A DNA stretch of 64,000 bases, taken from the NCBI RefSeq assembly GCF_024494595.1, contig NZ_JANHDI010000004.1, positions 248,001-312,000 of the forward strand. The letters run 5' to 3'. The notes below the pieces were generated by a model. The model saw only the letters and a program-made list of their open reading frames with translations, did no database searches and was not told the origin of the DNA. Source of the stretch: Halobellus rarus (GTDB lineage Archaea; Halobacteriota; Halobacteria; Halobacteriales; Haloferacaceae). A program made the translations under genes and the position numbers. This document shows positions 1 through 59,938 of the stretch, piece after piece; the first letter of the stretch is position 1, and each line of letters opens with the position of its first letter.

Positions 1-429
1 CGCCGTCAGGTGGAGATAGAAGTGATCGCCGAGCGAGGCGTCGTCGTCGATGGAGTGCGGACTCTCCGATTTGTACAGCTGAACCGAGTACCCGCGCTCC
101 TGGACGGTGACGTTGGTGTGTTCGCCGGTCTCGTCCTGCAGTTCGTCGAGTTCGGGTTTGGCCGCCTGGTAGAGCGCCAGACCGTCACGGCGCTGTCCAC
201 CGGTCTGCAGGAACTCGAAACTGCACCGGTAGGTGTCGTCGTCCTTCACCACGTAGCCCGTGTCGACGAGGGTCGTCAGGTGGATGTGGGCCGTGCTCAC
301 CGCCATCCCGAGGTCGTCGGCCGCCTCCGAGAGCGTCGCACCGTCCTCGCGCCGTAGATATTCAATGATTCCAAAAGACCGCTCGACGCTCTGCAGGCCG
401 CGTGCGCCCGATTCGTCCGGCTTGGTCAT
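1..429 (-). CDS. IclR-family transcriptional regulator (C-terminus cut by window edge)
   Basis: The minus strand reads an open frame from the ATG at 429 to the window edge, giving 143 residues. A winged helix-turn-helix sits at about residues 13-60 (a leucine-rich ERSFGIIEYL helix, then GATLSEAADDLGMAVSTAH as recognition region), and the start of an effector-binding domain follows, as in IclR proteins. A TATA-like CTTAAG lies at 450-458, about 25 nt upstream, so the message is probably leaderless. Such proteins usually control adjacent catabolic genes in response to a small acid or sugar ligand. The neighbours are an RraA-type aldolase and a hydroxyacid dehydrogenase, so this is a candidate local regulator. 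The ligand cannot be read from sequence and the C-terminal domain is missing from view. Confidence 0.88.
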   Translation of the reverse strand, partial: MTKPDESGARGLQSVERSFGIIEYLRREDGATLSEAADDLGMAVSTAHIHLTTLVDTGYVVKDDDTYRCSFEFLQTGGQRRDGLALYQAAKPELDELQDETGEHTNVTVQERGYSVQLYKSESPHSIDDDASLGDHFYLHLTA

Positions 430-513
430 ACGTACTGCTTCGGCCGTATCTCCTTAAGCCCTGCGAGGAATTACAACGATGTTGAACCGGGAGCGAAAGG
501 ACTCGCTCGCACC

Positions 514-1203
514 CTACTGAATCGAGTCCTCGGGGCCGACGACCTCCAAGTTCTCGAAGAGTTCGTCGTAGCCGTTGAGCTCGAAGAGGTAGGTGCCGTC
601 CCGGACCTCTTCTCGCGTGTCGTCCTCGGAGTCGAGTTTCGCGTGAGCGAGGTCGAGGACCCGTTCTGCACCGTCGCCGGGAATGACCGCGAGGCCGTCG
701 TCGTCGCCGACGACGATGTCGCCGGGGTCGACGCTCACGCCGCCGCAGGAGATGGTGGCGTTCACCGAGCCGGGATCCTGTTTGAGCGGCCCCTGCGGGT
801 TCACACCGCGACCGTAGACGGGGAATTCCATCTCGGCGATTTCGCGGCTGTCCCGGTATCCGCCGTCGATGACGAGCCCCGCGAGGTCGTTCGCCTTGCA
901 GGATTCGCACATCAATTCACCGATGTGTCCGGTGTCGGTGTAGCCGTCACAGTCGATCACGAGGACGTCGCCGGGTTCGGCCATCGTGATCGCCTTGTGG
1001 ATGATGAGGTTGTCCCCGGGAGCGGCCTTGACGGTGATCGCGGTCCCGGCCATCTCGATGTCCTCGTAGGCGGGCGTGAGCCCGGCGTCCATCGTGAGGC
1101 CGACGTTGCCGGTCACGTCGGAGACGATCGTGCTCGGAATCGCCTCGAACGCCTCGACGATGTCGCGGTCCGGCCGCTGCACGTCGTGCTCGATCGTGTG
1201 CAT
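514..1203 (-). CDS. RraA-family protein, probable 4-hydroxy-4-methyl-2-oxoglutarate / 2-oxo-4-hydroxyacid aldolase
   Basis: This 229-residue protein is full length for the RraA/HMG-aldolase family. The family signature is visible: a PGDNLIIHKA segment near residues 62-71, GHIGEL near 92-97 with the likely Glu ligand, and VIDGGYRDS near 111-119 carrying the Arg-Asp pair that binds substrate and metal in class II pyruvate aldolases. Family members cleave 4-hydroxy-2-oxo acids to pyruvate and a second oxo-acid, or decarboxylate oxaloacetate; others are RNase E inhibitors, irrelevant in an archaeon. The start at 1203 is chosen because a TTAATG-type TATA element sits about 28 nt upstream (1228-1235). 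It is divergent from the hydroxyacid dehydrogenase at 1292, consistent with joint control. The exact substrate is inferred only. Confidence 0.82.
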   Translation of the reverse strand: MHTIEHDVQRPDRDIVEAFEAIPSTIVSDVTGNVGLTMDAGLTPAYEDIEMAGTAITVKAAPGDNLIIHKAITMAEPGDVLVIDCDGYTDTGHIGELMCESCKANDLAGLVIDGGYRDSREIAEMEFPVYGRGVNPQGPLKQDPGSVNATISCGGVSVDPGDIVVGDDDGLAVIPGDGAERVLDLAHAKLDSEDDTREEVRDGTYLFELNGYDELFENLEVVGPEDSIQ

Positions 1204-1291
1204 ACGTCCGAGGAGACCGATCGGACTCATTAAGCTACTGATCGACGCGCGAGGCCAAACGATATGTCGACGCGACGCGCACGGACAGCTA

Positions 1292-2302
1292 ATGACCGAC
1301 ACGCCGACCGTCTACGTGACCCGGAGAATACCCGAGGTGGGACTGGAACGGCTTCGAGACCGGTACGAGGTCGTCGTCTGGGAGGGGAAACTCCCGCCGG
1401 CGAAAGCGCACATCGCCTCCCGGCTCGAAGAGTTAGACGCGGAAGGGCTCGTCTGCCTGCTCTCCGATACGATCGACGCCGAGGTGCTGGATGGCTCGCC
1501 GGACCTCTCGGTCGTCAGCACCTTCTCGGTCGGCTACGACCACATCGACCTGGAAGCGGCCGCCGAGCGCGGCATCGCCGTCGGCCACACGCCGGGCGTA
1601 CTCACCGAGACGACCGCGGACCTCGCCTGGGCGCTTCTGACGGCCTGTGCGCGTCGGACTGTCGAGGGCCACGCGTACGTCGAGGCCGACGAGTGGGAGA
1701 CTTGGGGACCGACGCTCCTGACGGGGCCGGACATCCACGACGCGGCGCTCGGAATCGTCGGCCTCGGCAACATCGGCACGGCCACCGCCCGGCGTGCCGC
1801 GGGATTCGATATGGACGTGCGCTACAGCGGTCGATCGCGCAAGCCCGACCGGGAGGCCGAACTCGCCGAGGTCGGCGTCGACGCGACCTACGTCGAACGC
1901 GAGGAACTGCTCGCCGAGAGCGATTTCGTCTCTCTGCACGTACCCCTCGTCGAAGCGACCGAGGACCTCATCGGCGAGGAAGAACTCCAGCAGATGTCCG
2001 AGAACGCAGTCCTCATCAACACGAGTCGCGGTGGGGTCGTCGACACAGACGCGCTCGACACCGCGCTCGAACGGGAGTGGATCGCCCGCGCGGGACTGGA
2101 CGTCACCGACCCCGAACCGCTCCCCGGCGACCACCCGATCCTCCGACACGCGCCCGAACGGCTCGTCGTGACGCCGCACATCGGGAGCGCGAGCATCGGG
2201 ACCCGGAACCGGATGGCCGAGATGGCCGCCGCGTGCACCATAGCCGGCATCGAGGGCGAACCGGTGCCACACTCGGCGCTGGGAGACGCCGGCTTGGAGT
2301 GA
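1292..2302 (+). CDS. D-2-hydroxyacid dehydrogenase (glyoxylate/hydroxypyruvate reductase type)
   Basis: The 336-residue protein carries the NAD(P) Rossmann motif GLGNIG at residues 157-162 and the catalytic triad of the D-isomer-specific 2-hydroxyacid dehydrogenases: Arg246 (NTSRGGVVD), Glu275 (DPEPLPGDHP) and His296 (TPHIGSAS). The TFSVGYDHID segment near 78-86 is typical of the glyoxylate/hydroxypyruvate reductase and 2-ketogluconate reductase subgroup. It interconverts a 2-oxo acid and the D-2-hydroxyacid. With glycerate 2-kinase on the other strand just downstream (stop-to-stop spacing 24 nt), hydroxypyruvate or glyoxylate is a sensible substrate, but this is inference from context. The ATG at 1292 follows a weak TATA-like AAACGATA about 30 nt upstream. 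Confidence 0.88.
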   Translation: MTDTPTVYVTRRIPEVGLERLRDRYEVVVWEGKLPPAKAHIASRLEELDAEGLVCLLSDTIDAEVLDGSPDLSVVSTFSVGYDHIDLEAAAERGIAVGHTPGVLTETTADLAWALLTACARRTVEGHAYVEADEWETWGPTLLTGPDIHDAALGIVGLGNIGTATARRAAGFDMDVRYSGRSRKPDREAELAEVGVDATYVEREELLAESDFVSLHVPLVEATEDLIGEEELQQMSENAVLINTSRGGVVDTDALDTALEREWIARAGLDVTDPEPLPGDHPILRHAPERLVVTPHIGSASIGTRNRMAEMAAACTIAGIEGEPVPHSALGDAGLE

Positions 2303-2326
2303 CGAGTCGGGCGACCGCGCGAGCGG

Positions 2327-3646
2327 TCACTCCGCGACGAGCAACACTCGGAGGTCGTTGACGTTGGTGCCCGTCTGGCCGGTGCGCACGAGCGCCCCGC
2401 GCTCGTCGAGGTAGCCGTAGACGTCGTTGTCGGCCAGGAGCGACCGGGCGCGGCGCGGATCCTCGACCGTCCGTTCGTCGACCACCGCCCCGGCGGCGTC
2501 GGTGGGGCCGTCGATACCGTCGGTGTCGACGGCGCACAGGACGGCCGGTTCCCCCAGTTCGAGCGCCGCGCTGAGCGCGAACTCCTGATTCGGTCCGCCG
2601 GTGCCGTCGCCTCGAATCGTGACGGTCGTCTCGCCGCCCGAGAGGACGGCCGCGGGCGGTTCGAGGGGGTTACCGCTCCGTCGGATCTCCTCGGCGACGG
2701 CGGCGTGCGTCTTCGCCGCCTCGCGCGCCTCGCCCCTGACGGACGAGGAGAGCACGAGCGTCTCGAAGCCCGCCTCCCGACAGACCTCGCGCGCGGCCGA
2801 GAGCGCGGTGAAGTTGTTGGCGACGACGTGGACCGACACGGAGTCGAACGCGGAGTCGTCGCCGACGGGCGTCTCCGGTACGTCGCCGTTCGCACCCGCT
2901 CGAAGGTGCGCGAAGACGGACGCGGGCGCGTCGACGTCGTACTCGGTGAGGACGTCCAGCGCGTCCTCGTAGGTGGTCGGGTCGGGCGAGAGCGGCCCGC
3001 TAGCGACGACTGACGGGTCGTCGGAGGCGACGTCGCTGAAGACGAGTCCGACCGTCGTCGCCGGCGCGGCGGCGCGGGCCAGTTGGCCGCCCTTTATCGC
3101 CGAAACGTGCTTTCGGACGGCGTTGATCCGGTCGATCGGTGCGCCCGAGCGGAGCAGCGCCTCGGTGAGTTCCCGGAGGTCCGCGAGCGACACGCCGTCG
3201 ACCGGTGCCGCCAGAAGCGCGCTCCCGCCGCCGGTCACCGGGGCCAAGACGAGCGTGTCCTCGTCGGCCGCGGCGGCGCGCTCGATCAGTCGACGCGCCC
3301 CCTCGACGTTCGCCTCGCTCGGAACGGGGTGGGTACCGGTCACGGTCTCGATCGGTCCCGCGGGAGCGGGGTCGTCGGTGACGACGAGACCGCCGGTGAG
3401 ATGCGTCTCCAGACGATCCGCGAGGTGGCTCGCGACAGTTCCCGCGGCGTTGCCGCCGCCGAGGACGATGACGTCGTCGTAGTCGGCGAGCTCGTAGCGC
3501 CGACCGTCGATCCGGAGCCGATCGCCGTCGATGGTGAGCGCCTCCCGCAACACGGCCTCGGGGTGCGCCGCCTCGATTCCGGCGCGGACGGCATCGCGCG
3601 CGACGTCGGCGGGGGGCGAACCGGATCGATCGTCTGTCTCGGTCAT
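2327..3646 (-). CDS. Glycerate 2-kinase (GckA/TtuD, MOFRL family)
   Basis: The 439-residue product matches the two-domain glycerate 2-kinase architecture. The N-terminal DUF4147-like domain contains the VIVLGGGNAAGTVA nucleotide-binding loop and VTGGGSALLAAP. The C-terminal MOFRL domain contains the LSGGETTVTIRGDGTGGPNQEFAL stretch (conserved GGE..V....GxGGxxQE) and ends with TGTNVNDLRVLL. The enzyme phosphorylates D-glycerate at C2 using ATP, feeding 2-phosphoglycerate into lower glycolysis. Haloarchaea use it in fructose, glycerol and sugar-acid breakdown. A TATA box (TTAATATA, 3669-3676) is centred about 27 nt before the ATG at 3646, so the transcript is probably leaderless. It converges with the hydroxyacid dehydrogenase, which would supply glycerate. 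Confidence 0.9.
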   Translation of the reverse strand: MTETDDRSGSPPADVARDAVRAGIEAAHPEAVLREALTIDGDRLRIDGRRYELADYDDVIVLGGGNAAGTVASHLADRLETHLTGGLVVTDDPAPAGPIETVTGTHPVPSEANVEGARRLIERAAAADEDTLVLAPVTGGGSALLAAPVDGVSLADLRELTEALLRSGAPIDRINAVRKHVSAIKGGQLARAAAPATTVGLVFSDVASDDPSVVASGPLSPDPTTYEDALDVLTEYDVDAPASVFAHLRAGANGDVPETPVGDDSAFDSVSVHVVANNFTALSAAREVCREAGFETLVLSSSVRGEAREAAKTHAAVAEEIRRSGNPLEPPAAVLSGGETTVTIRGDGTGGPNQEFALSAALELGEPAVLCAVDTDGIDGPTDAAGAVVDERTVEDPRRARSLLADNDVYGYLDERGALVRTGQTGTNVNDLRVLLVAE

Positions 3647-3668
3647 AGGCGTTGGTGCGCGAGGGCGC

Positions 3669-3676
3669 TATATTAA
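3669..3676 (-). promoter_or_regulatory. TATA box of the glycerate 2-kinase gene
   Basis: On the minus strand the element reads TTAATATA, centred about 27 nt upstream of the ATG at 3646. That distance matches the archaeal TATA-to-start spacing expected for a leaderless transcript. Confidence 0.6.
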
Positions 3677-3809
3677 CCCTATCGTGATCGGGTCGTACAC
3701 GCTCCGTGGGGAGCGACGCGTCCCGCTCCCTGTGGCGCGCAGCCACGGCGGCAAAACGATACCGTGCGAAAAGGAGTCATCCCGAGTGCAGCGGATATCT
3801 AACACAATC

Positions 3810-3817
3810 TTTATTAT
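3810..3817 (+). promoter_or_regulatory. TATA box of the TRAP dctP gene
   Basis: TTTATTAT is centred about 27 nt upstream of the dctP ATG at 3841. It supports that start over an upstream in-frame ATG, which would place the box inside the gene. Confidence 0.65.
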
Positions 3818-3840
3818 TGATTAGCGAATCGCGTAACAGT

Positions 3841-4965
3841 ATGGCTCGTGATTCGCAGCCAACCACACGGCGGAGTGTACTGAAAACCGGCGGCATCGCC
3901 CTCGGGGTCGGGGTGGGGCTGGCCGGCTGTTCCGGAAACGGCGGCGGAGACGGCGACGGCAGCGGGGACGGCGGCGACGGCGACGGCGGTGACAGCGGAG
4001 ACGGGAACGGCGGCGGGGCCACCACGACCGCGGGGAACGGTGCAGAGGAGGTCGAGATCACCTTCGCGACCACCCAGCCGCCGGAGAATATCTCCGTAGA
4101 GGCGGCCCAAGAGCACTTCATCGACGTGATCGAGGAGGAGACCGACGGTCGCATCTCCGTGGACCTGCAGGCGGCGACGCTCGGCGGAACGGAGGACAAC
4201 CTCGACGCGCTCGAGGCGGGGACTGTCGACATCCTCCACGAGAGCCCGACGGCGCTCTCTCAACGCTTCGCCTCCGAGTACTCCTTCGCGGGCGACCCGT
4301 TCGTCATCGAGGATATGGAGCACTATCACGCCGTGACCGAGGAGTTCCTCAAGCCCGAGGACGGGCTGAACGGCATCCTGCTGGATAACGGGATCAGGCT
4401 CGGTGACGCGTTCTACGTGGGCAACCGCTGTTACACCAGCAACTCGGCGGTCACGAGTCCCGAGGACGTCCAGGAGATGAAGCTCCGCCTCCCGCAGTAC
4501 GAGACGTGGACCGCGGTGTGGGACGAGATCGGTGCCGAGGTCACCCCCGTCGCCTACGACGAACTCTACTCGGCGCTGCAGACCGGCGTCGTCGACGCCT
4601 CGGAGGGACCGATCTCGCAGTTCCTGGCGGTGAGCCTCTACGAGGTTCAGACGCACTTCAGCGTCACGAACCACCTGCTGGACACGAAGCACTTCCTGTA
4701 CAACGACGAGTTCTATCAGGGTCTGAGCGACGACGACCGCGAACTCATCACCTCGACCGCCGCCGACGCGGTCGAGGGAATGACGAGCGACATCAAGTCC
4801 CGCGAGGAGGAGCTCTACGACCAGGCGCGCGACGAGGGGACGACCGTCGTTACCGCCGACGAGGTCGACCGCGACGCCTTCGTCGAAGCCGCACAGCCGG
4901 CGCTGGAGTCGCTATCGGAGAGCACCTGGGCGGTCGACATCGGCGACGTCCAGGATCTGGCGTAA
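3841..4965 (+). CDS. dctP: TRAP transporter substrate-binding lipoprotein (DctP family)
   Basis: This 374-residue secreted protein starts with a Tat signal: Arg10-Arg11 in TTRRSVLKTGG, a hydrophobic stretch, and a lipobox LAGC with Cys30, followed by a long Gly/Asp linker typical of haloarchaeal lipoproteins. The mature part is DctP-like (EITFATTQPPENISVEAAQ at its start, the conserved RLPQYETW segment, and a PVAYDELYSALQTGVVDASEGP block that binds the carboxylate and shapes the cleft). It would capture an organic acid outside the cell and deliver it to DctQM. The permease genes lie about 1.8 kb away on the opposite strand with a stress-protein and an AEC permease gene between, an unusual split for TRAP loci. 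A pyrimidine-rich tract after the stop (about 4975-5035) may help termination. Confidence 0.92.
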   Translation: MARDSQPTTRRSVLKTGGIALGVGVGLAGCSGNGGGDGDGSGDGGDGDGGDSGDGNGGGATTTAGNGAEEVEITFATTQPPENISVEAAQEHFIDVIEEETDGRISVDLQAATLGGTEDNLDALEAGTVDILHESPTALSQRFASEYSFAGDPFVIEDMEHYHAVTEEFLKPEDGLNGILLDNGIRLGDAFYVGNRCYTSNSAVTSPEDVQEMKLRLPQYETWTAVWDEIGAEVTPVAYDELYSALQTGVVDASEGPISQFLAVSLYEVQTHFSVTNHLLDTKHFLYNDEFYQGLSDDDRELITSTAADAVEGMTSDIKSREEELYDQARDEGTTVVTADEVDRDAFVEAAQPALESLSESTWAVDIGDVQDLA

Positions 4966-5162
4966 GCCCGTCTCCACTTCGTTCCGTTCTGCCTCCGTCT
5001 CCGCCTCTTTCCGTTCCGTCTCTCCCCCGTCCGCACTTCGGCCGTAACGATCGATCGGTCGATCGAGCCGGTCCGTTCGGAAGCCGTGCGACGGACGGGC
5101 AGCGCGATACCGCACTGGACGACGAACGGCCGGCGAAGCGGCTCCGTTCGTGCCCGACCGAC

Positions 5163-5606
5163 CTATTCGAAGTCCCGAGCACGCAGCGAGACCACCGGGC
5201 AGTCAGCCTCCAAGAGGACGGACTGCGCGACGCTCCCGAAGAGGATCTTACCGGTCTGGCTCCGCTGCTGTGGACTGACGACGATGTATCGAGCGTCCTG
5301 TTCCTCGGCGTAGGAGACGATCTCGGCCGCCGGATCGCCGATACGCCCGACGGCGACCGTCTCGGCGTCCGGGGGATGCGCCTCCATCAGCTCTGCCGCG
5401 ACGGCTGCTGCCCGGTCTCGGAGATCGTCGACGGGGACGGCCTCGTCGGTTCGACTGACGCTCTCCTCCTCGGTCTGAATCGCCTCCGATCGGCTCATCA
5501 CGTGGAGCGCGTGGATCGGTTCTTCGAACCGCCCTGCCAGCGTGTCGGCCTCGTCGAGGACAGCCCGGGCCTGGTCTGATCGATCTACCGCTGCTACGAT
5601 AACCAT
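5163..5606 (-). CDS. Universal stress protein (UspA domain)
   Basis: A 147-residue single UspA domain. It opens with the beta strand MVIVAAVDRSDQA and ends with the usual C-terminal strand CPVVSLRA. The ATP-binding region near residues 108-130 (SPQQRSQTGKILFGSVAQSV) is a variant of the G-x2-G-x9-G-S motif in which the first glycines are replaced, so nucleotide binding may be weakened. A strong TATA (AATTATAA, 5631-5638) is centred 28 nt upstream of the ATG, indicating a leaderless message. In haloarchaea Usp genes are often interspersed among transporter genes. Here it lies between dctP and an AEC permease. Its specific role is unknown. Confidence 0.85.
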   Translation of the reverse strand: MVIVAAVDRSDQARAVLDEADTLAGRFEEPIHALHVMSRSEAIQTEEESVSRTDEAVPVDDLRDRAAAVAAELMEAHPPDAETVAVGRIGDPAAEIVSYAEEQDARYIVVSPQQRSQTGKILFGSVAQSVLLEADCPVVSLRARDFE

Positions 5607-5630
5607 ACCGACCCTTCTGTCTCACTCGTC

Positions 5631-5638
5631 TTATAATT
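5631..5638 (-). promoter_or_regulatory. TATA box of the universal stress protein gene
   Basis: AATTATAA on the minus strand is centred about 28 nt from the start codon at 5606. It is one of the most AT-rich promoter elements in this part of the window. Confidence 0.6.
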
Positions 5639-5721
5639 TTATCGTGGCCTCGTCGCGAGAGCGCTGTGGAACGCTGGAGGCGGGACACGGGGACGACCCC
5701 ACTATCGTCGCAACGGCAGCA

Positions 5722-5729
5722 TTTTTATT
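5722..5729 (+). promoter_or_regulatory. TATA box of the AEC permease gene
   Basis: TTTTTATT is centred about 27 nt upstream of the ATG at 5752. It decides for this start rather than the in-frame codons further upstream. Confidence 0.55.
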
Positions 5730-5751
5730 CGCGGTTCCGGAAGGCGCGTGT

Positions 5752-6711
5752 ATGGCATCTGCATTGGGGATCATCGTGTCCTCCATCCTCCCGATCTTTC
5801 TGATACTCACCGTCGGGTTCCTGCTAAATCGAACGAAAGAGATCGATCCGGGGCCGCTCAACACGCTCTCGCTGTTCGTGTTGACTCCCGCGCTCGTGAT
5901 TCACAGCATCGCGCTCACCGACCTGGGCGCCGACGCGCTGTTGCGAATCTCCGCCGGCGTCGGCGTGTTCGTCGGCGGTCTGCTCGCGGTGAGTTGGCTC
6001 TACGGGAAGGCCGTCGGCAAGGAGGACGCGGTGCTGAACACCTTCCTACTCGTTTCCGTCTTCGGGAACACCGGCGCGCTCGGGATCCCGCTGGCCGACT
6101 TCGCGTACGGGGACATCGGCCGGCAGACGGCGGTCCTCTTCGCCGCCGTCCACGGTGCGCTGGTGTTCACCCTCGGGCTGTTCATCGCGCTGAACTCCGG
6201 CGACGAGGCTGGATCCGTCGTCGCGAAGCGCGTGTTCCGGTATCCACTGGTCTACGCGGTCGTGCTGGCGGTCCTCGCACGCACCGCCGGCGTCGTCCCG
6301 GACGCCGGGTCGCCGCTGATGGAGACGCTCGGACTCGTCGGCGAGGCGTCGATTCCGATTATGCTCCTGATCCTCGGCGTGCAGCTCTCGGAGACGGAGT
6401 ACCGCGGGGCGCTCTCGATGACGGCGATGCCGACGCTGTTCCGGTTCGGCGTCTCCCCGCTCGTCGGAGTGGTCGTCGCGACGGCACTTGGGTTTCAGAA
6501 TCCGGCAGTTGCGCAGGTGTTCGTCCTCCTCACCGCGATGCCGGTGGCCGTGGCTCCGGTCATCTTCGTCGTCGAGTTCGCGAGCGACACCACGGTGGGG
6601 GGCGTGACCCTCCCGGAGTTCGTCTCCGCGAACGTCTTCGTGACGACTCTCGTGTCGATTCCGATTCTCACCGTCGTTATCACGATTCTCAAGTCCGGAC
6701 TCGTCGTCTGA
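5752..6711 (+). CDS. AEC family transporter (auxin efflux carrier / malonate-type permease)
   Basis: The 319-residue protein is hydrophobic throughout, with about ten predicted membrane spans, the normal size and layout of the AEC/MdcF-type permeases. Family features are the N-terminal LPIFLILTVGFLLNR helix, FVLTPALVIHSIA in helix 2, the GNTGALGIPLADFAYG segment near residue 106, and EASIPIMLLILGVQL near 203-217, with the conserved P-I-M-L-L-L-G-x-Q/A-L pattern. AEC members export or import organic anions such as malonate or malate. A TATA box lies 27 nt upstream of the start. Located between dctP and dctM, it probably handles a related carboxylate. Direction of transport and substrate are unknown. 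Confidence 0.88.
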   Translation: MASALGIIVSSILPIFLILTVGFLLNRTKEIDPGPLNTLSLFVLTPALVIHSIALTDLGADALLRISAGVGVFVGGLLAVSWLYGKAVGKEDAVLNTFLLVSVFGNTGALGIPLADFAYGDIGRQTAVLFAAVHGALVFTLGLFIALNSGDEAGSVVAKRVFRYPLVYAVVLAVLARTAGVVPDAGSPLMETLGLVGEASIPIMLLILGVQLSETEYRGALSMTAMPTLFRFGVSPLVGVVVATALGFQNPAVAQVFVLLTAMPVAVAPVIFVVEFASDTTVGGVTLPEFVSANVFVTTLVSIPILTVVITILKSGLVV

Positions 6712-6790
6712 TTAGCGAGCGAACGAGATACGGGGGTTCGATCGAAACGGGTGAAAAACACGGCGACGGACAGATCGACCGCGTCGCCGG

Positions 6791-8089
6791 TCAGAGCAGG
6801 CCGAATGCCTCGGGGAGAGCCAGCGAGAGCTCGGGGAACAGGATGATGAGAACGAGTACCACGAGCAGCGGGAGGTAGTACGGCAGCATCGAGCGCATCA
6901 CCTTGTCGAGGGACTCGTTGGTCACCCGTTCGAGGACGAACAGGATGAGCCCGAACGGCGGCGTGATGAGACCGTACATCAGCGTGACGACCATCACGAT
7001 ACCGAAGTGGACCGGGTCGATGCCCAGTTCCGGATACAGCGGGACCAGCATCGGGACCATGATGAGGAGCACCGCCATCCCCTCCATAAACGTCCCCAGA
7101 ACCAACAGCACGAGGGCCAACAGCAGCATCGTGACCAACGTGCTCGCGCCAATTCCGGTGACGATGTCGCCGATCAGACTGGGGATGCCGGCGAGCGTCA
7201 ACCAGTACGCGTAGAGGTTCGCGAACCCGAAGATGACCACGATGCTGGCGGTGTCCTCGAACGTCTCCTTGCTCACCTCGTAGAGGTCCTTCAGCGTGAT
7301 CGAGCGGTAGTAGAAGAACCCCAGCAGAATCGCGTACACCACCGCGACGAGCGCGGCCTCGGTGGCGGTGAACACGCCGAAGAGGATCCCCCCGATGATG
7401 ATGAGCGGCGCGATCAGCCCCGGGAGCGCTTTGAGGAACGACTCGAACAGAGCGGAGAGATCGTACGCCCCCGAACTCGGCCAGTCGTGCTTTCGAGCCA
7501 GATAGAACACTGTCCCTCCCATCGCGAGCGCCATGAGTAGTCCGGGAACGACGCCGGCGATAAACAGGGTCCCGATGGACTCCTGAGCGAGGACCGCGTA
7601 GACGACGATCGGAATGCTGGGTGGGATGATCGGTCCGATGATCGAAGAGGCCCCCGTGATCCCGACCGCGTCTTCGCCCTCGTAGCCGTTCGTCGTCATC
7701 GCCTCGTACTCGACACTACCGATACCCGCGGCGTCGGCGACCGCAGAGCCGCTCATCCCCGAGAAGATCAGACTCACGACGACGTTCACCTGCGCCAGTC
7801 CGCCCCGGACGGGGCCGACGAGTTCGGTAGCGAAGTTGAACATATCGTCGGTGATCCCGGTGATGTTCATAATCCGACCCGCCATGAGGAAGAACGGAAC
7901 CGCCAACAGCACCCAGGAGTTCATCCCCGACCAGAACCGCTGGGTGACCACGATGAAGTTCAACTCGGGGCCGATCGGGAGGAACATAATGAGAAGTACC
8001 GTCATCGCCAGCGAGTAAGCGGCCGGTACGCCGATCCCGTACAGCAAGAACAGGATCCCGAGGAACGCGACGAGGAGTATTTCAGACAT
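6791..8089 (-). CDS. dctM: TRAP transporter large permease subunit (DctM)
   Basis: The 432-residue membrane protein matches DctM, the 12-span, sodium-coupled large permease of TRAP transporters. Recognisable parts are the first helix LLVAFLGILFLLYGIGVPAAYSL, the FFLMAGRIMNITGI loop, GMSGSAVADAAGIG near residue 110-124 (the conserved S-G-S-A-x-A-D motif), a PIIPPSIPIVVYA segment, and the C-terminal TPPFGLILF motif near residue 380. The ATG at 8089 is preferred to an upstream GTG (8098); either way it overlaps the end of dctQ, so the two are translationally coupled. It imports the acid bound by DctP, driven by a sodium gradient, which suits a halophile. Confidence 0.93.
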   Translation of the reverse strand: MSEILLVAFLGILFLLYGIGVPAAYSLAMTVLLIMFLPIGPELNFIVVTQRFWSGMNSWVLLAVPFFLMAGRIMNITGITDDMFNFATELVGPVRGGLAQVNVVVSLIFSGMSGSAVADAAGIGSVEYEAMTTNGYEGEDAVGITGASSIIGPIIPPSIPIVVYAVLAQESIGTLFIAGVVPGLLMALAMGGTVFYLARKHDWPSSGAYDLSALFESFLKALPGLIAPLIIIGGILFGVFTATEAALVAVVYAILLGFFYYRSITLKDLYEVSKETFEDTASIVVIFGFANLYAYWLTLAGIPSLIGDIVTGIGASTLVTMLLLALVLLVLGTFMEGMAVLLIMVPMLVPLYPELGIDPVHFGIVMVVTLMYGLITPPFGLILFVLERVTNESLDKVMRSMLPYYLPLLVVLVLIILFPELSLALPEAFGLL

Positions 8090-8561
8090 CAGACCCACCT
8101 CGGATCTCGTCGACCCGGCGTTTCGTGTCTCCGATCACGACGACGAAGAGGACCGCAGCGGCCGCGCCGAAGAGGAGGTAGCCCCAGCCCACCTTGAACC
8201 AACTGATCGTCGGGAGTCCGGTGTCCCCGGCCGTGCCGTACGCGAGGTATGCGGACCAGACGAAGATCACCGACAGCGCGCCCATCAGGACGTTCCTGAC
8301 GAGCAGGAACTGATTGGTCCGCGACGTGACCCGTCGAAGGACGGGGAGAAACGAGATGTCCGCGTCGTTTCTGAAGAGATACGGGATGGCGATGATCGTC
8401 ATCAGCGCGAGGGTCGTCCTCGCAACCTCGTAGGTCCAGTAGAGTTCGATCGAGACGTCGACGTATCGGTTCAGTACCTGGATGATTCCCACCACCAACA
8501 TAACGTTCAACATAATCACGCCGATTGCGACGGTGACCTTGTCGAACCAGTCGCTTCCCAT
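8082..8561 (-). CDS. dctQ: TRAP transporter small permease subunit (DctQ)
   Basis: The protein has 159 residues and four predicted membrane helices. It has the layout of DctQ, including the NRYVDVSIELYWTYEVART segment near residues 32-50 that contains the conserved N-R-Y and W-x-x-E residues, and a YLFRNDADISF loop. The ATG at 8561 was chosen because a perfect TATA (TTTATAAT, 8584-8591) is centred 26-27 nt upstream; the earlier ATG at 8606 would lie upstream of the promoter. It heads a two-gene dctQM operon. The partner dctP is encoded about 3.1 kb away on the opposite strand. Confidence 0.88.
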   Translation of the reverse strand: MGSDWFDKVTVAIGVIMLNVMLVVGIIQVLNRYVDVSIELYWTYEVARTTLALMTIIAIPYLFRNDADISFLPVLRRVTSRTNQFLLVRNVLMGALSVIFVWSAYLAYGTAGDTGLPTISWFKVGWGYLLFGAAAAVLFVVVIGDTKRRVDEIRGGSDV

Positions 8562-8583
8562 ACCGACCAAACGATCACCAACG

Positions 8584-8591
8584 ATTATAAA
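8584..8591 (-). promoter_or_regulatory. TATA box of the dctQM operon
   Basis: TTTATAAT on the minus strand is centred 26-27 nt before the ATG at 8561. It predicts a leaderless dctQM transcript and fixes the DctQ start. Confidence 0.7.
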
Positions 8592-8716
8592 GCCTTGTGG
8601 TATCAATTCCGAGAGCGCTTAGCGCCCGCGATCAGCGGAAACGACGATCCGTGTGACGATCACCGCCGATCGCTGGGGAGTGAAGTGCCAGCGAGCCTCG
8701 AACGTTTCGGCGCTAG

Positions 8717-12469: not shown

Positions 12470-13213
12470 ATGAAAATTGACGGCTTCACTCTCGCGGCTA
12501 CAACAAACGATCTCACACGGGAGGAGGAAGCCCGAGAGAAGGCGGACGTCATCGAGTTCCGGATGGACCAGGCGGAGGACCCGATCGCACAGCTCGAAGC
12601 GTACGACGGCGAACTACCGATCGTCGCGACGAACCGCAATCAGTGGTTCGGCGGAAAGGCCCGCGACACCGGACGTCTGGACACGCTCTTCGCGGCGTCT
12701 CGATTCGACGCTGTCACGTACGTCGACATCGAACTGGAGACGGCACGGGCGAAGGAGTGGATTCTCGAGGAGTTCCGCGACAACGACGTCGGCCTCATCA
12801 TCTCGCATCACGACTTCGACTCGACACCGGACAAGGAGGTTCTCACGGCGATCATCGACCAGTGTGCGGGCTACGGCGACGTGGCGAAAGTCGCGGTCTA
12901 CCCCGAGGACCTCTCGGACACGCTGACGCTTCTGACGGCGCTACACGAAGCCACCCAGGCCGGCATCGATGCCGCCGGTATCGCGATGGGCGAAACCGGG
13001 AGTCACACCCGCGTAGTCGGTCACATATACGGTTCCAAGCTCGGATACGCACCCCTCCTCGACGACGACAGCGAGTACGCACCCGGCCAGATTCCCCTCG
13101 GCAAGCTCAGGGCGCTCGTCGAATCGACCAGGATCGACGGCACGCAACTGGAACGCATCGAAGCTATCGAGGGCGACGTCTCCGTCCCCTCCGAACTGAC
13201 GCTGCCGAACTGA
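12470..13213 (+). CDS. aroD: 3-dehydroquinate dehydratase, type I
   Basis: The 247-residue enzyme converts 3-dehydroquinate to 3-dehydroshikimate through a Schiff base. Type I landmarks are present: EFRMD at residues 29-33 (substrate-binding Glu, Arg, Asp), the catalytic His in ISHHDFD (112-114), and the Schiff-base Lys in VAKVAVY (Lys140). A C-terminal MGETGSHTRVVGHIYGSKLGYAP block and a GQIPLGKLR segment complete the family pattern. It is isolated from other shikimate genes, behind an AT-rich island, and upstream of a LigM-like demethylase gene. It may therefore serve quinate/shikimate catabolism, or simply be the biosynthetic enzyme; the sequence does not decide. Confidence 0.93.
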   Translation: MKIDGFTLAATTNDLTREEEAREKADVIEFRMDQAEDPIAQLEAYDGELPIVATNRNQWFGGKARDTGRLDTLFAASRFDAVTYVDIELETARAKEWILEEFRDNDVGLIISHHDFDSTPDKEVLTAIIDQCAGYGDVAKVAVYPEDLSDTLTLLTALHEATQAGIDAAGIAMGETGSHTRVVGHIYGSKLGYAPLLDDDSEYAPGQIPLGKLRALVESTRIDGTQLERIEAIEGDVSVPSELTLPN

Positions 13214-13237
13214 GTAGCGAAGCGAGAGCGAGGCCCG

Positions 13238-13771
13238 TTACGCCCCCGCCGCGCCCGTGAGCGGTTCGACGACTCGCAGGTCTTTCTCCGCGGCGACGTC
13301 TCTGATCTTCTCGAGCACTACCTCGGTAGCGCCGCGTTCGGCCGCGATGTCGATACGGGCACTCGAGACGTTCGACGTCCCCTCCGGTGCCGCGACCGAC
13401 AGGTCCGTCACGGTCGCGTTCGCAGACTCCTGAATCCGCGAGAGCGTATCCGAGAGGTCGGTATCGATGACGTGACCCGAGAGGATGACCGTCAGGCCCT
13501 CGCTGTAGCGCTCGGTGCCGGCCTGAATGACGTTGATCCCGGCGTCGCGGAGGCCGTCGATGATATTCTCGAAGCGGGCCGGCGTGGCCTCGACGTCGAC
13601 TTCGACGGGGATGTGTCCGCGGGGCGTGACGTTGCCCCGCTCGTGGAAGATCGACAGGAGGTTCCCGCCGTTGTCCGCGATCGGGCGGAGCGACCGGAGG
13701 AGTTCGCCCGGCTCGTCGACCAACTCGAGGCGGAGCGTGTACGCGCGGACGTCCGTCTGGACGTCACTCAT
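13238..13771 (-). CDS. ACT-domain amino-acid-binding regulatory protein
   Basis: The 177-residue protein starts with an ACT domain (about residues 8-80): TLRLELVDEPGELLRSLRPIAD..GGNLLSIFHER, with the strand-Gly-Leu pattern that binds amino acids at domain interfaces. A second, looser alpha/beta half follows. In many haloarchaea a similar protein is encoded next to homoserine dehydrogenase, where it may sense threonine-family amino acids; here that partner is absent. Transcription is convergent with aroD. A TATA-like TTTATTTC lies about 55 nt upstream of the chosen ATG, implying a short leader. An in-frame ATG at 13813 is too close to that TATA to be the start. Confidence 0.75.
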   Translation of the reverse strand: MSDVQTDVRAYTLRLELVDEPGELLRSLRPIADNGGNLLSIFHERGNVTPRGHIPVEVDVEATPARFENIIDGLRDAGINVIQAGTERYSEGLTVILSGHVIDTDLSDTLSRIQESANATVTDLSVAAPEGTSNVSSARIDIAAERGATEVVLEKIRDVAAEKDLRVVEPLTGAAGA

Positions 13772-13966
13772 CGATGGATCGACCTCGGTTCGTCCGGTGC
13801 ATACCCGACTCATCCCTCGGAAGCGAAATAAACGTACTGTCGGTCAGCAGATGAGTCGTCGCCGAGCGACAGAACGGGAACTCGAGTAGCGAGGCCCGAA
13901 TCGCGTGGACGCGTTCGACGAACGAAACGCCTCAGTCCGGATTCCACCCCTCGGCGAGCGGGTCCA

Positions 13967-13976
13967 TTTATATAAA
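13967..13976 (+). promoter_or_regulatory. TATA box of the LigM-like gene
   Basis: TTTATATAAA is a perfect palindromic TATA. Transcription would begin near 14000, leaving a leader of about 15-20 nt before the ATG at 14016. Confidence 0.65.
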
Positions 13977-14015
13977 AGGTTATGTTCACTTCCCCCGAGT
14001 ATCACAGGTACACAT

Positions 14016-15353
14016 ATGTCAGACCGAACCCTTCAGGACGCACTCGACTCGGCGGCGAGCCCCGTCGACCTCCTCCGCGACCTCGGACTCGCGAGGTTCA
14101 CCGACCTCCCGGACGAGTTCACCCACTGGATCGAAGAACAGCGAGCGTGGGCCGAAAGCGTCGCGTTCGCGGATCAGTCGTATCACATGACCGATCTGCG
14201 AATCGACGGCGTCGAGGCGATCGATCTCTACGCCAAGTACGCCGTCAACAACTTCGAGCAGTTCGACGTCGGGCAGGCGAAACAGCTCGTCGTCGCCAAC
14301 CCCGACGGCTACCTCGTCGGCGACGCCATCCTCTTCCGGGAGGCCGAGGACTCGTTCCTGAGCGTGGGTGCCGCCGCGGCCCACAACTGGCTGATTTACC
14401 AGGCGGAAACGGGAGACTACGACGTCGAGACCGAGTATCAGCCCCGCCCCGTCGGAACGGGAGACGACCCCAACAACTTCCGGTATCAGGTACAGGGCCC
14501 CGACGCGGTCGCCGTGATGGAGGAAGCCATCGACGGCTCGATCCCGGACCTGGGCTTCTTCCGGTTCGAGGAGGTCTCGATAGATGGCAGCGACGCGTAC
14601 CTCCTGCGACACGGAATGGCCGGCGAGGCCGGCTTCGAGTTCTGGGGCGACTGGGACGACGCCGACGCCGTCAGAGAAGCGATCCTCGACGCGGGCGAGG
14701 CGTACGACGTCCGTCGGCTCGGCTCGAAGAGCTACCAGAGCGCGAACACCGTCCTGGGCTGGCTCCCCCTCCCGGTCCCGGCGATCTACACCGGCGAGGA
14801 GATGAAGGACTTCAGAGAGTGGCTCTCCCTGCGGCGCGGCCTCATCTCGATCGGCGGGAGCTACGACTCCGACGACATCGAGGACTACTACGTCACGCCG
14901 ATCGAGGTCGGCTACGATCACATCGTCGACTTCGATCACGACTTCGTCGGGCGGGAGGCCCTGGAAGCCGAAATCGACGATCCCGAGCGGAAGAAGGTGA
15001 CGCTCGTCTGGAACGACGAGGACGTCGTCGACGTCTACGCCTCGCTGTTCCGCGAGGGCGAGACGAGCAAGTTTATGGATATGCCGGTCCCGCGCTCCTC
15101 GGCGTGTCACTACGACGAGGTGAAGAAAGACGGCGAGCTCGTCGGCGTCTCCAAGTGGATGAGCTACCTCTACAACCACCGGAAGATGCTGTCGCTCGCG
15201 CTCGTCGACACCGAGTACGCCGAACCCGGCACGGAGGTCACCCTCACCTGGGGCGAGGCCGACGGCAGCGAAAACAAGAGCGTCGAGCGCCACGAGCAGA
15301 CCGAGATCCGGGCGACCGTCGCACCGGCACCGTACAAGCAGGATCGACGGTAA
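14016..15353 (+). CDS. GcvT-fold aminomethyltransferase family protein, LigM/DesA-like O-demethylase homologue
   Basis: The 445-residue protein belongs to the GcvT/DmdA/LigM fold that moves a methyl or aminomethyl group to tetrahydrofolate. Segments such as ADQSYHMTDLRIDG near residue 50, LRHGMAGEAGFEFWG near 200, the PAIYTGEEMKDFREWL block near 255, and IEDYYVTPIEVGYDHIVDFDHDF near 290 follow the pattern and length (about 450-470 aa) of LigM (3-O-methylgallate/vanillate) and DesA (syringate) O-demethylases as I remember them, rather than the shorter GcvT of about 370 aa. It would take a methyl group from a methoxylated compound. It stands alone with its own promoter, next to AroD. No ring-cleavage enzyme is visible. 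Substrate assignment is inference. Confidence 0.72.
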   Translation: MSDRTLQDALDSAASPVDLLRDLGLARFTDLPDEFTHWIEEQRAWAESVAFADQSYHMTDLRIDGVEAIDLYAKYAVNNFEQFDVGQAKQLVVANPDGYLVGDAILFREAEDSFLSVGAAAAHNWLIYQAETGDYDVETEYQPRPVGTGDDPNNFRYQVQGPDAVAVMEEAIDGSIPDLGFFRFEEVSIDGSDAYLLRHGMAGEAGFEFWGDWDDADAVREAILDAGEAYDVRRLGSKSYQSANTVLGWLPLPVPAIYTGEEMKDFREWLSLRRGLISIGGSYDSDDIEDYYVTPIEVGYDHIVDFDHDFVGREALEAEIDDPERKKVTLVWNDEDVVDVYASLFREGETSKFMDMPVPRSSACHYDEVKKDGELVGVSKWMSYLYNHRKMLSLALVDTEYAEPGTEVTLTWGEADGSENKSVERHEQTEIRATVAPAPYKQDRR

Positions 15354-15404: not shown

Positions 15405-16604
15405 CTAGTAGTCCGGTAGCGGTGCCGGGCCGCCGCGTTCCCGATACGCGATCTCGTCGGCCAGCTCACGCATAAACGGGTGGACGGTGTTGGCCATAAG
15501 CATCACCGGCTGCTCGGTGGCGAGCAGCCGGTCGAGAACGTCGCTCGCTGCCGTCTCGTCCGTGTCGTGTTCCGTAGCCGGGGCGTCCACTCGGCGGGCG
15601 AACACGCCGGTGTACGCGCCGCCGACGTGGACCCGATCGATGAGCCCCCGATCGGCGAGGATGTTCACGTACTGGACGAACGAGGCGGTTCTGCCGCGGC
15701 GGTCCCGACGGAGGAAGACGAACGGACAGACCAGTTCCGCGTTCTCACCCGATCCGACCAGCTGTCGGCGAAAGAGCTCCGTGCTCTCGATCTCGTTGAC
15801 CTTCGCCGCGTTGAACACGCGGCCGCCGGGCAGCTCGGTCCACTCGGGTTGAATCGCGTCGAGCATCGATTCGAGTTCGGACTCCGGAAGCGGCGGTTCG
15901 TCGAGGTATCCGAGCACGTGGTTCAGCGCGTAGACCGTCTCCGACCCGATGAGGTCGCGGTGTCGCTCGGGCACGTCGACCTGTTCGATCGTCCCGCCCC
16001 GTGCGGTGATCTCCGATTCGAGGTAGTCGTGAATGACGCCGTGTTGTTCGCCGCTGATGACGTGACACCCCTCGGGGACCGATCGGGCGAACGAGCGAGC
16101 GATCGTCTGGCGGCGCTTTCCGAGCGTGTCGTTGTGGTCCTGCCGGACGTTGCAGAACAACAGTAGATCCGGTCTGAGGAACTGTTCGTTCACCATCCGC
16201 ATCGTGTACTCGGTGATCGCTTGATTCTCCATCACGACGGCGTCGTCGTGACTCGTGATCGCCAGTTGCGGGAGGAACTCGCGGACGAGGTTGAGATTCT
16301 CGTACAGCGTCACGCGGGGACCCCGCCGCTGAATCGGGATCTTGCGCCCGTTGTGGTAGGAGGTCGGGTGGTCCCCCGTGATCTTCGTGTACGTGTCGTA
16401 GCCGCGGTCGGCGAGGATGGCTCCGAGTTGCTTCGCCGTCGAAGATTTCCCGCGAATCCCCGAGACGCTGATCCGAACGTCGGCATCTTCGAGCAGTTCG
16501 CGGTGTTCCGATCCCCGTCCGAAGAACGACTCCAGGCGGTCGCGAACCGTCGAGCCGCGAAGCAGTTGGCCGCCGTACGAGAGGGATCGGTCGAACAGGT
16601 CCAT
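15405..16604 (-). CDS. capB: Mur-ligase-like poly-gamma-glutamate synthase subunit (PgsB/CapB)
   Basis: The 399-residue protein matches CapB/PgsB in size and motifs. The ATP-binding P-loop is SGIRGKSST at residues 48-56, and CNVRQDHNDTLGK at 151-163 corresponds to the Mur-ligase/CapB motif with Asp-His. CapB, with CapC and usually CapA, polymerises glutamate into gamma-linked chains exported to the cell surface; some haloarchaea make such polymers. The start codon overlaps the stop of capC by 1 nt (TGATG at 16602-16606), so the pair is translationally coupled. No CapA or CapE gene is visible in the window. The substrate could also be another amino acid polymer. Confidence 0.85.
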   Translation of the reverse strand: MDLFDRSLSYGGQLLRGSTVRDRLESFFGRGSEHRELLEDADVRISVSGIRGKSSTAKQLGAILADRGYDTYTKITGDHPTSYHNGRKIPIQRRGPRVTLYENLNLVREFLPQLAITSHDDAVVMENQAITEYTMRMVNEQFLRPDLLLFCNVRQDHNDTLGKRRQTIARSFARSVPEGCHVISGEQHGVIHDYLESEITARGGTIEQVDVPERHRDLIGSETVYALNHVLGYLDEPPLPESELESMLDAIQPEWTELPGGRVFNAAKVNEIESTELFRRQLVGSGENAELVCPFVFLRRDRRGRTASFVQYVNILADRGLIDRVHVGGAYTGVFARRVDAPATEHDTDETAASDVLDRLLATEQPVMLMANTVHPFMRELADEIAYRERGGPAPLPDY

Positions 16605-17776
16605 CAGCCCTCACCTCCGGAGAGGACCGACGCCGAGAGGACGTCTTCGTCGTCCGGTTTCGGGATTCGGAGTCGATAGGCGATCGCGAGGCAAAGCAGA
16701 ACGACGATCCCCCCGACGACGACGTGGATCACCGTGAATTCCTGGAGCAACCCCCGCCTGAAGGGATCGACGACCGTCCGAATAAATAGCAGCATCCCGA
16801 GAAACGTCCCGAGCGCGAGGAACGGCTGCTGGCGGCGCTCAAGCGGCGGCGTCGTGTGGACCGCATACGCCATCACGCCCGCGATGACGCCGACGAAGAG
16901 CGCGGAGAAGCCGCGGATAATCGGCAGTTCCAGCGCGAGGAGCAGCGCCGCGACGGAACCCACACCACAGCCGAGACTCAACAACACGCGTCCGTACAGC
17001 AGGGTTCTGAGGTGGATCAGCCAGACGGCGACGACGGAGACGGCGAACGACAGGACGAACAGAGCCAACAGCCAGCGGCTGACCAGCGAAAACAGCGCGA
17101 GTAACGCCATCGAGATGATCCCGATTCGGATCCCGAACTCCCGGCGGACGAGTTCGGAGAGCGCCATCCCGACGACGAAGAACAGCACGATCGTCGAGCG
17201 GACGTCGATGTTCGGTGCCAGGTATCCGTCGACTACGGCCCCTCTGAGGGCGGCGATGTCGGAGGTCTCCGCGAACAGAACGAGCGGAGTCAAATCACCG
17301 AGCAGGCGGGCCGTCGAGGGGGCGATCAGCACGCCGCCCAACAGCACGAGTCCGACGATGAGACCGGCCGTGTAAAGCAGGTCCTGCCGCTGGTACTCCG
17401 GTTTCGTCTGGGCGACGTTATAAGCGGCCAGTCCGGGGAGGATGCTCCCGACGAAGACGAGCGGATTCACCTCGAGGAAGGCGGGCCGGAACGTCGCGAG
17501 CGCGAAGTAGCCGAGCATCGGCACGAGCGCCCCGCCCGCGAGCGCGACGAGGAACTCGTCGCGGCCGTAGACGAGGGTCCGTTCTTTCGCCTGCCACAGG
17601 ATGAAGTAGGCGACGCCAGTGCTCAGAACGAACACCGGGAGGGTGGTGAAATCCTTGAGCGCGTACACCACGAGCGTCGGAACGAGGATGGCACCGCCGA
17701 GTCGCAGTCCTTTGGTTTGTGTCACAGCTGCGGTCAAAAAGAACCCGAGGATGGAGAGAATGCTCGCGACGATCAC
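16604..17776 (-). CDS. capC: PgsC/CapC-like poly-gamma-glutamate biosynthesis membrane protein, apparently duplicated
   Basis: The 390-residue integral membrane protein has about ten to twelve hydrophobic spans. Bacterial CapC is about 150 residues; this protein appears to hold two CapC-like halves. The first has RLGGAILVPTLVVYAL, then ERTLVYGRDEFLVAL, then a GSILPGLAAYNVAQTKP segment. The second has IRIGIISMALLALFSLVS, then LRTLLYGRVLLSLG, then VGVIAGVMAYAVHTTP at matching spacing. It precedes capB with a 1-nt overlap, which supports the assignment. A TATA-like TTTATTTT near 17803 lies upstream. It would form the membrane part of the polymer synthase/exporter. Confidence 0.78.
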   Translation of the reverse strand: MIVASILSILGFFLTAAVTQTKGLRLGGAILVPTLVVYALKDFTTLPVFVLSTGVAYFILWQAKERTLVYGRDEFLVALAGGALVPMLGYFALATFRPAFLEVNPLVFVGSILPGLAAYNVAQTKPEYQRQDLLYTAGLIVGLVLLGGVLIAPSTARLLGDLTPLVLFAETSDIAALRGAVVDGYLAPNIDVRSTIVLFFVVGMALSELVRREFGIRIGIISMALLALFSLVSRWLLALFVLSFAVSVVAVWLIHLRTLLYGRVLLSLGCGVGSVAALLLALELPIIRGFSALFVGVIAGVMAYAVHTTPPLERRQQPFLALGTFLGMLLFIRTVVDPFRRGLLQEFTVIHVVVGGIVVLLCLAIAYRLRIPKPDDEDVLSASVLSGGEG

Positions 17777-17953: not shown

Positions 17954-18520
17954 TCAATCGGAGATGAACTTGTTGTCGCGCCAGTTCACGCCGCCCGAAC
18001 CGTTGTCGTTCTTCGAGGGGTTCTCGACGACCTCGATGCTCGCCGGGCGCTCCTCGCCCTCGACGATTCGGTGGGCGGTGAGTTCGCCGTCGAGTTCGGT
18101 GATCGCGGTGAGTGTCCCCTTCTCCGCGAGCAGCGCGATCTCGCGCAGGACCAGGAACATCGGGTACTGCAGCGCGGTGTTCTGTAAGACGGTCTCGCGG
18201 TCGCCCTTGAAGCAGGCGAACTCGACGAGTTCGGAGGGGATTTCCTCCTCTTCTTCCTCCCAGCGGGGCGCGCCCGCTCGGGGCGGTTCCTCTTCGTAGA
18301 CGCGGTTCTCCGTGATACTGGCTTTCAATTGCGCCGTCGGAGTGTACTTGCTCAGATTGTCCTCGGCCGCGACGGCCTTCAGGATGAGCGTGTTGTTCCG
18401 ACGGGTCACCTCGACGTCCGTGACCTCGGGCGGCAGGTCCGGGTCACCGTTCAGGTACTCTTCGACCTCTTCGAGGGGCAATTCCAGTGTCGAGTGAAGT
18501 CGGTATACGCGGCCTGACAT
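17954..18520 (-). CDS. Conserved haloarchaeal protein of unknown function
   Basis: This 188-residue soluble acidic protein starts MSGRVYRLHSTLELPLEEV and contains an acidic run WEEEEEEIP near residue 88. The N-terminal half has alternating beta/alpha pattern (VTDVEVTRRNNTLILKAVA). The second half is helical (ETVLQNTALQYPMFLVLREIALLAEKG). I have the impression of a widespread haloarchaeal family (possibly DUF7110) but cannot assign a function. A TATA-like CCTATAAGG lies near 18597-18604, implying a leader of about 50 nt. It stands alone between capC and a glutaredoxin gene. Confidence 0.7.
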   Translation of the reverse strand: MSGRVYRLHSTLELPLEEVEEYLNGDPDLPPEVTDVEVTRRNNTLILKAVAAEDNLSKYTPTAQLKASITENRVYEEEPPRAGAPRWEEEEEEIPSELVEFACFKGDRETVLQNTALQYPMFLVLREIALLAEKGTLTAITELDGELTAHRIVEGEERPASIEVVENPSKNDNGSGGVNWRDNKFISD

Positions 18521-59627: not shown

Positions 59628-59938
59628 TGATGGACTAGGTCGGGCAGCTAGGCCCTGCTCTCCACCCGCATCTTTGGCCTTCAGCGGGGACCGAACCCGG
59701 GTGCGTCCGGTCAGACCGGCGCGGGCCTCGGAAGCCAACGTAGAAACCTCGTCCTTCGGGGACGGCGGTTCACCGACGCCGGCCGCAGGGTCGGACAGAG
59801 GTGCTTCGTCGCCGGCAACCCGTCAGGCGCGGAAGCGAGCAGCGGACCAGCGAACGTTCGTCGCTCGGAGGATCGCGGGGTGGAGGAGGCGACCGAGATT
59901 CCCCGTGCCGGAACGTCGGGCAATCCCGCTGTCCACCA
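59628..59938 (+). ncRNA. ffs: Signal recognition particle RNA (7S RNA)
   Basis: About 310 nt, the length of haloarchaeal SRP RNA. The SRP54-binding loop of helix 8 is clear: GTCAGG (59822-59827) faces GGAAGCGAGCAGC (59831-59843), the near-universal pattern. The ends pair as helix 1: TGATGGAC (59628) with GTCCACCA (ending 59938), seven of eight pairs. GGTCGGGCAGCTAGGCCC near 59638 fits the 5' Alu-type domain with loops L2 and L1.2. A TATA-like CTTATGTG precedes the start. The exact ends may shift by a few nucleotides. SRP19, its protein partner, is encoded at 39546-39827. Confidence 0.85.

Follow-up and report, generated by a model that had tools for sequence, protein, structure and literature searches.

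The 445-aa protein at the centre of this analysis, encoded in a 64,000-nucleotide stretch of the Halobellus rarus genome (hereafter, the window), is by its sequence a member of the broad LigM/DesA family, but not LigM or DesA proper, and most likely works as these enzymes do, by tetrahydrofolate (THF)-dependent methyl removal. We propose, with a probability of roughly 0.6, that it is a THF-dependent demethylase of methoxylated aromatics, with the methyl group oxidised in trans and the product passed on to meta-cleavage. The proposal is built on family membership, phylogeny, retained catalytic residues, the neighbours of sister copies and purifying selection.

That this locus encodes a full-length LigM/DesA-like protein had been predicted from the DNA letters, and matches to PDB entries, NCBIfam models and folds all bear this out. 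With 445 aa, the protein falls within the ~445-470 aa typical of the family. The best structural match in the PDB is LigM (5tl4/5x1i; residues 5-442, phmmer E 8e-108), compared with 1e-16 for the best GcvT and 3e-7 for sarcosine oxidase; DmdA is likewise a far weaker match than LigM. The protein contains the GCV_T folate domain (Pfam PF01571, 114 bits) and is matched over its full length by the NCBIfam models of DesA (NF047633, 498 bits, the best NCBIfam model) and LigM (NF047885, 439 bits). Both scores lie under the respective equivalog cut-offs (800 and 580 bits), which, together with the loss of the Arg that most bacterial sequences have at LigM position 122, sets the protein apart from LigM and DesA proper. 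The GcvT model PRK00389 covers only the N-terminal half (83.8 bits, cut-off 300), and scores against GcvT- and sarcosine-type models also stay below the cut-offs (TIGR00528, 67.8 vs 236; soxA, 43.8 vs 1164 bits). Sequence identity is ~40% to LigM and ~45% to a Sphingobium DesA that scores 837 bits against the DesA model. A fold search with an AlphaFold2 model returned LigM first (E 2e-44) and GcvT next (5e-25); with a mean pLDDT of 70, a shallow alignment and an rmsd of >11 A to LigM, the model was used at the level of the fold, not of the pocket.

The phylogeny, to which the original prediction had looked for confirmation, agrees with the matches in grouping the protein with LigM/DesA rather than with GcvT or sarcosine/dimethylglycine oxidases. 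In a tree of 122 sequences, with one GcvT on a long branch as outgroup, all haloarchaeal copies form one clade (SH-aLRT 98) and GcvT branches far from the LigM-like sequences. A 47-sequence tree splits bacteria from haloarchaea (support 100/100), with LigM of Sphingobium SYK-6 and the above-cut-off Sphingobium DesA on the bacterial side and the window protein outside the DesA branch; bacterial sampling for both trees was comparatively narrow. The window clade, confined to Halobellus, has clade A1 as its sister group (100/99); A1 includes a copy from the same genome (C20:97368) and sequences from other genera.

LigM-like genes are rare among Halobacteria, with matches at E <= 1e-60 in only 22 of 391 genomes, and can be numerous where they occur. 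The source genome (a draft, 97% complete) carries six paralogues, 50-100% identical to the window protein; in a full count covering 21 of the 22 genomes, the highest numbers were found in Halobellus G289 (15 matches representing 14 genes, one being split by an assembly gap) and H. limi (11), and several copies are plasmid-borne. The window orthologue is present in eight of the 13 Halobellus genomes, the seven other copies occupying the same site and being 82-95% identical, a degree of conservation well in excess of chance. The dN/dS of 0.075-0.23 among seven intact copies shows that purifying selection acts on the window clade. An apparently broken orthologue in G289 was rejected as such, because the break is a 10-N assembly gap and not a frameshift.

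In the family alignment, the equivalents of LigM H60, H206, E215, Y247 and W256, which we take to be catalytic/folate-site residues, show no variation within the window clade or groups A1, A2, B, C, D and E; Y247 aligns with Y240 of the window protein. Position 122 behaves differently: Arg in 36 of the 42 bacterial sequences, it is Ala in all seven window-clade sequences, Gly, Ala or Ser in A1, Pro in A2, Thr in B, Lys in C, Met in D and Tyr in E, so that no haloarchaeal group, including the Lys-bearing C, has Arg there. LigM Y31 is replaced by Phe in the window clade, and Y29 faces a gap in the family alignment and an Ala in the pairwise alignment with LigM. Since a small residue takes the place of R122 in the window clade and A1 (Ala, Gly or Ser), the window copy probably combines LigM chemistry with a substrate other than plain vanillate. 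A pocket lacking the Arg at position 122 as well as Tyr29 and Tyr31 points to a substrate that probably exceeds vanillate in size or is less acidic than it, such as a methoxylated acid of the phenylpropanoid type or the corresponding CoA thioester. The compared pocket positions are nearly identical between the window clade and A1, and the two probably share a substrate type for this reason. A further haloarchaeal LigM-like clade, F, is without the residues at H60, Y247 and W256 (L062:9482-10807, L235:9232-10566, L237:9459-10796 and their kin) and is probably not a LigM-type demethylase.

By analogy with the gene clusters around the sister copies, the substrate of the window copy would be aromatic. 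In several genera, A1/A2 loci comprise a CoA ligase, one or two demethylases, a 2-hydroxyacid dehydrogenase and a thioesterase, and loci of the same type also hold a PcaR-like IclR regulator, a methylenetetrahydrofolate reductase (MTHFR), a catechol-2,3-dioxygenase-like (C23O-like) enzyme, an HpcH aldolase and an ALDH, often along with Liv-type ABC transporters. Some include FolD, PurU (247 bits, above the PRK06027 cut-off of 223), PabA, PabB, a PabC-like class IV aminotransferase, FolC-FolP and FolE2. In one locus, a FolC-FolP fusion (L055:3561-5675) lies inside the demethylase cluster with PabA, PabB and FolD, a set that, judged by its genes, constitutes a dedicated folate supply. The A cluster of the source genome spans ~C20:95.7k to C20:118k, with MTHFR at C20:103725, and MTHFR is found in 21 of the 22 genomes with LigM-like genes vs 102 of 391 overall. 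A bacterial counterpart exists in Rhodococcus opacus, where a LigM-like gene is accompanied by MTHFR, PurU, FolD and PCA-type dioxygenase genes. The clusters around the sister paralogues strongly suggest the methoxy-aromatic metabolism in haloarchaea that the original prediction had raised, and these organisms probably do demethylate methoxylated aromatics.

The family need not be restricted to aromatics, as indicated by type B paralogues (L010:3670-12175; own copy C16:9774), which adjoin a sugar-type ABC transporter, an FGGY carbohydrate kinase and an HAD phosphatase, an arrangement also found in Halobellus genomes without C23O-like genes and one that suggests an O-methylated sugar or polyol as substrate. 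The type D paralogue (C18:2703; L012:2691-8416) has genes for an Amidohydro_2 protein, an ALDH and a TPP enzyme next to it, and this set recurs in other Halobellus.

The search of the genome for ring-cleavage dioxygenases, suggested in the original prediction, had a mixed outcome. The 97%-complete draft yielded five C23O-like genes, none of which reaches the TIGR03211 equivalog cut-off, but neither LigB nor an intradiol dioxygenase was found in it, so that ring cleavage, if any, would be of the VOC extradiol type. One C23O-like gene (C20:114675) is near a demethylase paralogue, another (C20:286565) adjoins paralogue C20:285061, and 20 kb separate a third from C18:2703. Across the 391 Halobacteria, LigM-like and C23O-like genes (the latter counted at E <= 1e-40) occur together in 16 genomes, compared with 1.6 expected (p 4e-16). 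Phylogeny is allowed for in these p-values only through the tests outside Halobellus (8 of 12, p 9e-9) and by genus (7 of 11, p 4e-5), the genus-level value being the fairest, because related genomes are not independent. Within the LigM-positive genomes, 25 of the 43 C23O-like genes lie <=25 kb from a LigM-like gene, with ~4 expected.

The window copy itself stands alone, with no catabolic or folate partner adjoining it, and the evidence for partners comes from the paralogue loci. The gene order aroD-ACT-demethylase-(CapBC)-DUF7110 (Table 1) is common to the window and seven other Halobellus genomes, the CapB/CapC-like pair (poly-gamma-glutamate type) being present at this site only in the window and in H. 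limi. In Halobellus G030, the order is aroD-ACT-DUF7110, with ~110 bp between the ACT and DUF7110 genes and no demethylase, implying that the demethylase was gained at this locus or lost in G030. The aroD gene, kept in Halobellus relatives with and without the demethylase, is the sole PF01487 gene found in the source genome and, by that token, biosynthetic, and the opposite-strand ACT gene interrupts any aroD-demethylase operon. The suggestion that AroD links quinate/shikimate to aromatics is, therefore, not sustained. An RraA-family gene does lie upstream in the window, as had been pointed out, but its proposed connection to protocatechuate 4,5-cleavage fails, since it belongs to a glycerate/TRAP island and no LigB was found in the draft genome. 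This island (window 1-8606), which encodes an IclR regulator, RraA, a 2-hydroxyacid dehydrogenase, an MOFRL glycerate kinase and a TRAP transporter, is devoted to hydroxyacid/glycerate catabolism, and its presence varies among Halobellus. The nearness of AroD and RraA to the demethylase is coincidental. A candidate formyl-THF deformylase at ~22.4 kb, 8 kb downstream, with similarity to PurU was rejected, being on inspection a PurN/PurH-like purine gene and not a clear PurU. The window also contains the archaeal SRP RNA (59628-59938, + strand; RF01857, 184 bits).

Table 1. Genes of the demethylase locus and the upstream RraA-like gene (window positions)
Feature	Position	Strand	Length	Basis or remark
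RraA-like protein	514-1230	-		PF03737, 150 bits
aroD, type I 3-dehydroquinate dehydratase	12470..13213	+		PF01487, 143 bits
ACT-domain regulator-like gene	13238..13771	-		weak ACT-domain models; synteny
LigM/DesA-family (GCV_T fold) putative THF-dependent O-demethylase (W)	14016..15353	+	445 aa	sequence, fold, tree
Ligase-like (CapB/PgsB-like by eye) and CapC-like membrane protein (PF14102)	15405..17776	-		convergent with the demethylase
DUF7110 gene	17954..18520	-		PF23422, 329 bits

The A1 loci, with their folate genes, CoA ligase, extradiol dioxygenase and HpcH aldolase, point to THF-dependent demethylation feeding meta-cleavage. Under the proposed scheme, the window enzyme would convert a methoxylated aromatic into the phenol or catechol and 5-methyl-THF, with the tyrosine Y240, the equivalent of LigM Y247, as the putative catalytic residue. 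An MTHFR whose gene adjoins a paralogue (C20:103725) would oxidise the 5-methyl-THF in trans, presumably working in the oxidative direction, and FolD and PurU would then carry the methyl group through CH2-THF and formyl-THF to formate. The catechol product would enter one of the five C23O-like enzymes, followed by an HpcH/HpaI aldolase. The window copy is a stand-alone paralogue within the core aroD-ACT-DUF7110 locus and functionally unconnected to AroD. More tentatively, Halobellus and some other haloarchaea may hold a separate radiation of THF-dependent demethylases, of up to ~14 copies per genome, that allows them to grow aerobically on methoxylated aromatics by oxidising 5-methyl-THF and cleaving the ring at the meta position, several members having moved to substrates not known for the family, such as O-methyl sugars or polyols.

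The same THF mechanism could also serve a non-aromatic methyl donor, be it an O-methylated sugar or polyol or an osmolyte-like compound. The loss of the position-122 Arg and of Tyr29/Tyr31, the sugar-type transporter, FGGY kinase and HAD phosphatase next to type B paralogues and the radiation of the family to ~14 copies in one genome are all compatible with such a donor; we nevertheless consider it unlikely, because the closest relatives, A1, cluster in several genera with a C23O-like dioxygenase, an HpcH aldolase and a CoA ligase, and the compared pocket positions of the two clades are near-equal. The window gene might, alternatively, be a redundant or decaying duplicate of A1 without a role of its own, as could be imagined for a stand-alone, Halobellus-only sister of that clade. 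The low dN/dS, the retention of all catalytic positions, the presence in eight of 13 Halobellus genomes and the explanation of the G289 break by an assembly gap render this distinctly improbable.

The remaining two explanations fare worse still. An aminomethyltransferase, that is, a GcvT paralogue or a folate domain of the sarcosine/dimethylglycine oxidase type, would share the PF01571 domain with the window protein, but the GcvT match is partial (84 bits vs 498 for DesA; PDB E 1e-16 vs 1e-107), and a separate GcvT, beside GcvH- and GcvP-like proteins identified by eye (L013), branches far away; this placement is already refuted by the matches and the tree, leaving the reading a very poor prospect. 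No more credible is a quinate/shikimate-to-protocatechuate pathway with AroD and an RraA-like aldolase. The genes are physically close, and an H. limi plasmid bearing several LigM-like genes (NZ_CP031313.1) carries two extra type-I 3-dehydroquinate dehydratase genes (L212:768-3398), possibly catabolic; against this stand the single core aroD, the opposite-strand ACT gene, the empty site in G030, the location of RraA in the glycerate/TRAP island and the failure to find LigB or an intradiol dioxygenase in the draft genome. A methoxy-aromatic demethylase acting with partners in trans remains the preferred reading.

If correct, this reading would carry lignin-type aromatic turnover into hypersaline settings, by a folate-dependent LigM-type route coupled to extradiol cleavage, and offer a source of salt-tolerant demethylases. 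It would also mean that a catabolic family of bacterial type diversified in archaea along with extra folate-making genes, and the systematic pocket differences between copies make substrate evolution directly testable. Our search of the open-access literature returned no relevant report joining haloarchaea with LigM or aromatic O-demethylation, and the proposed LigM-type demethylation in haloarchaea is, provisionally, new to that literature; archaeal use of methoxylated aromatics has been described for Methermicoccus, Archaeoglobus and Bathyarchaeia, by way of methyltransferase systems.

Among known systems, LigM of Sphingobium SYK-6, which demethylates vanillate and 3-O-methylgallate (PDB 5tl4, 5x1i-5x1n), resembles the window protein in full length, domain order, ~40% identity and the five conserved residues, but the window protein scores 439 bits against a cut-off of 580, belongs to a separate haloarchaeal clade and differs at R122 (Ala), Y29 (Ala) and Y31 (Phe), and the ring-cleavage enzymes of the Halobellus genome are of another family. 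DesA, the syringate O-demethylase, provides the best NCBIfam model, yet 498 bits fall far short of 800 and the window protein lies off the DesA branch. GcvT, DmdA and the dimethylglycine and sarcosine oxidases have the GCV_T folate fold in common with it, with much weaker, mostly partial matches. The Mto-type methyltransferase system is corrinoid-dependent. The anaerobic archaea Methermicoccus and Archaeoglobus perform Mto-type O-demethylation with a bacteria-like methyltransferase system (PMC8630106, PMC8359953). The likeness consists in archaeal removal of methyl groups from methoxylated aromatics, proposed here from genes, whereas the haloarchaeal family has the GCV_T fold, is of the THF type and has dioxygenases nearby. 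For SYK-6, the coupling of LigM to an MTHFR that works oxidatively has been described (LigM-S6MTHFR; PMC12585457), a partnership that is paralleled in the haloarchaeal sister clusters.
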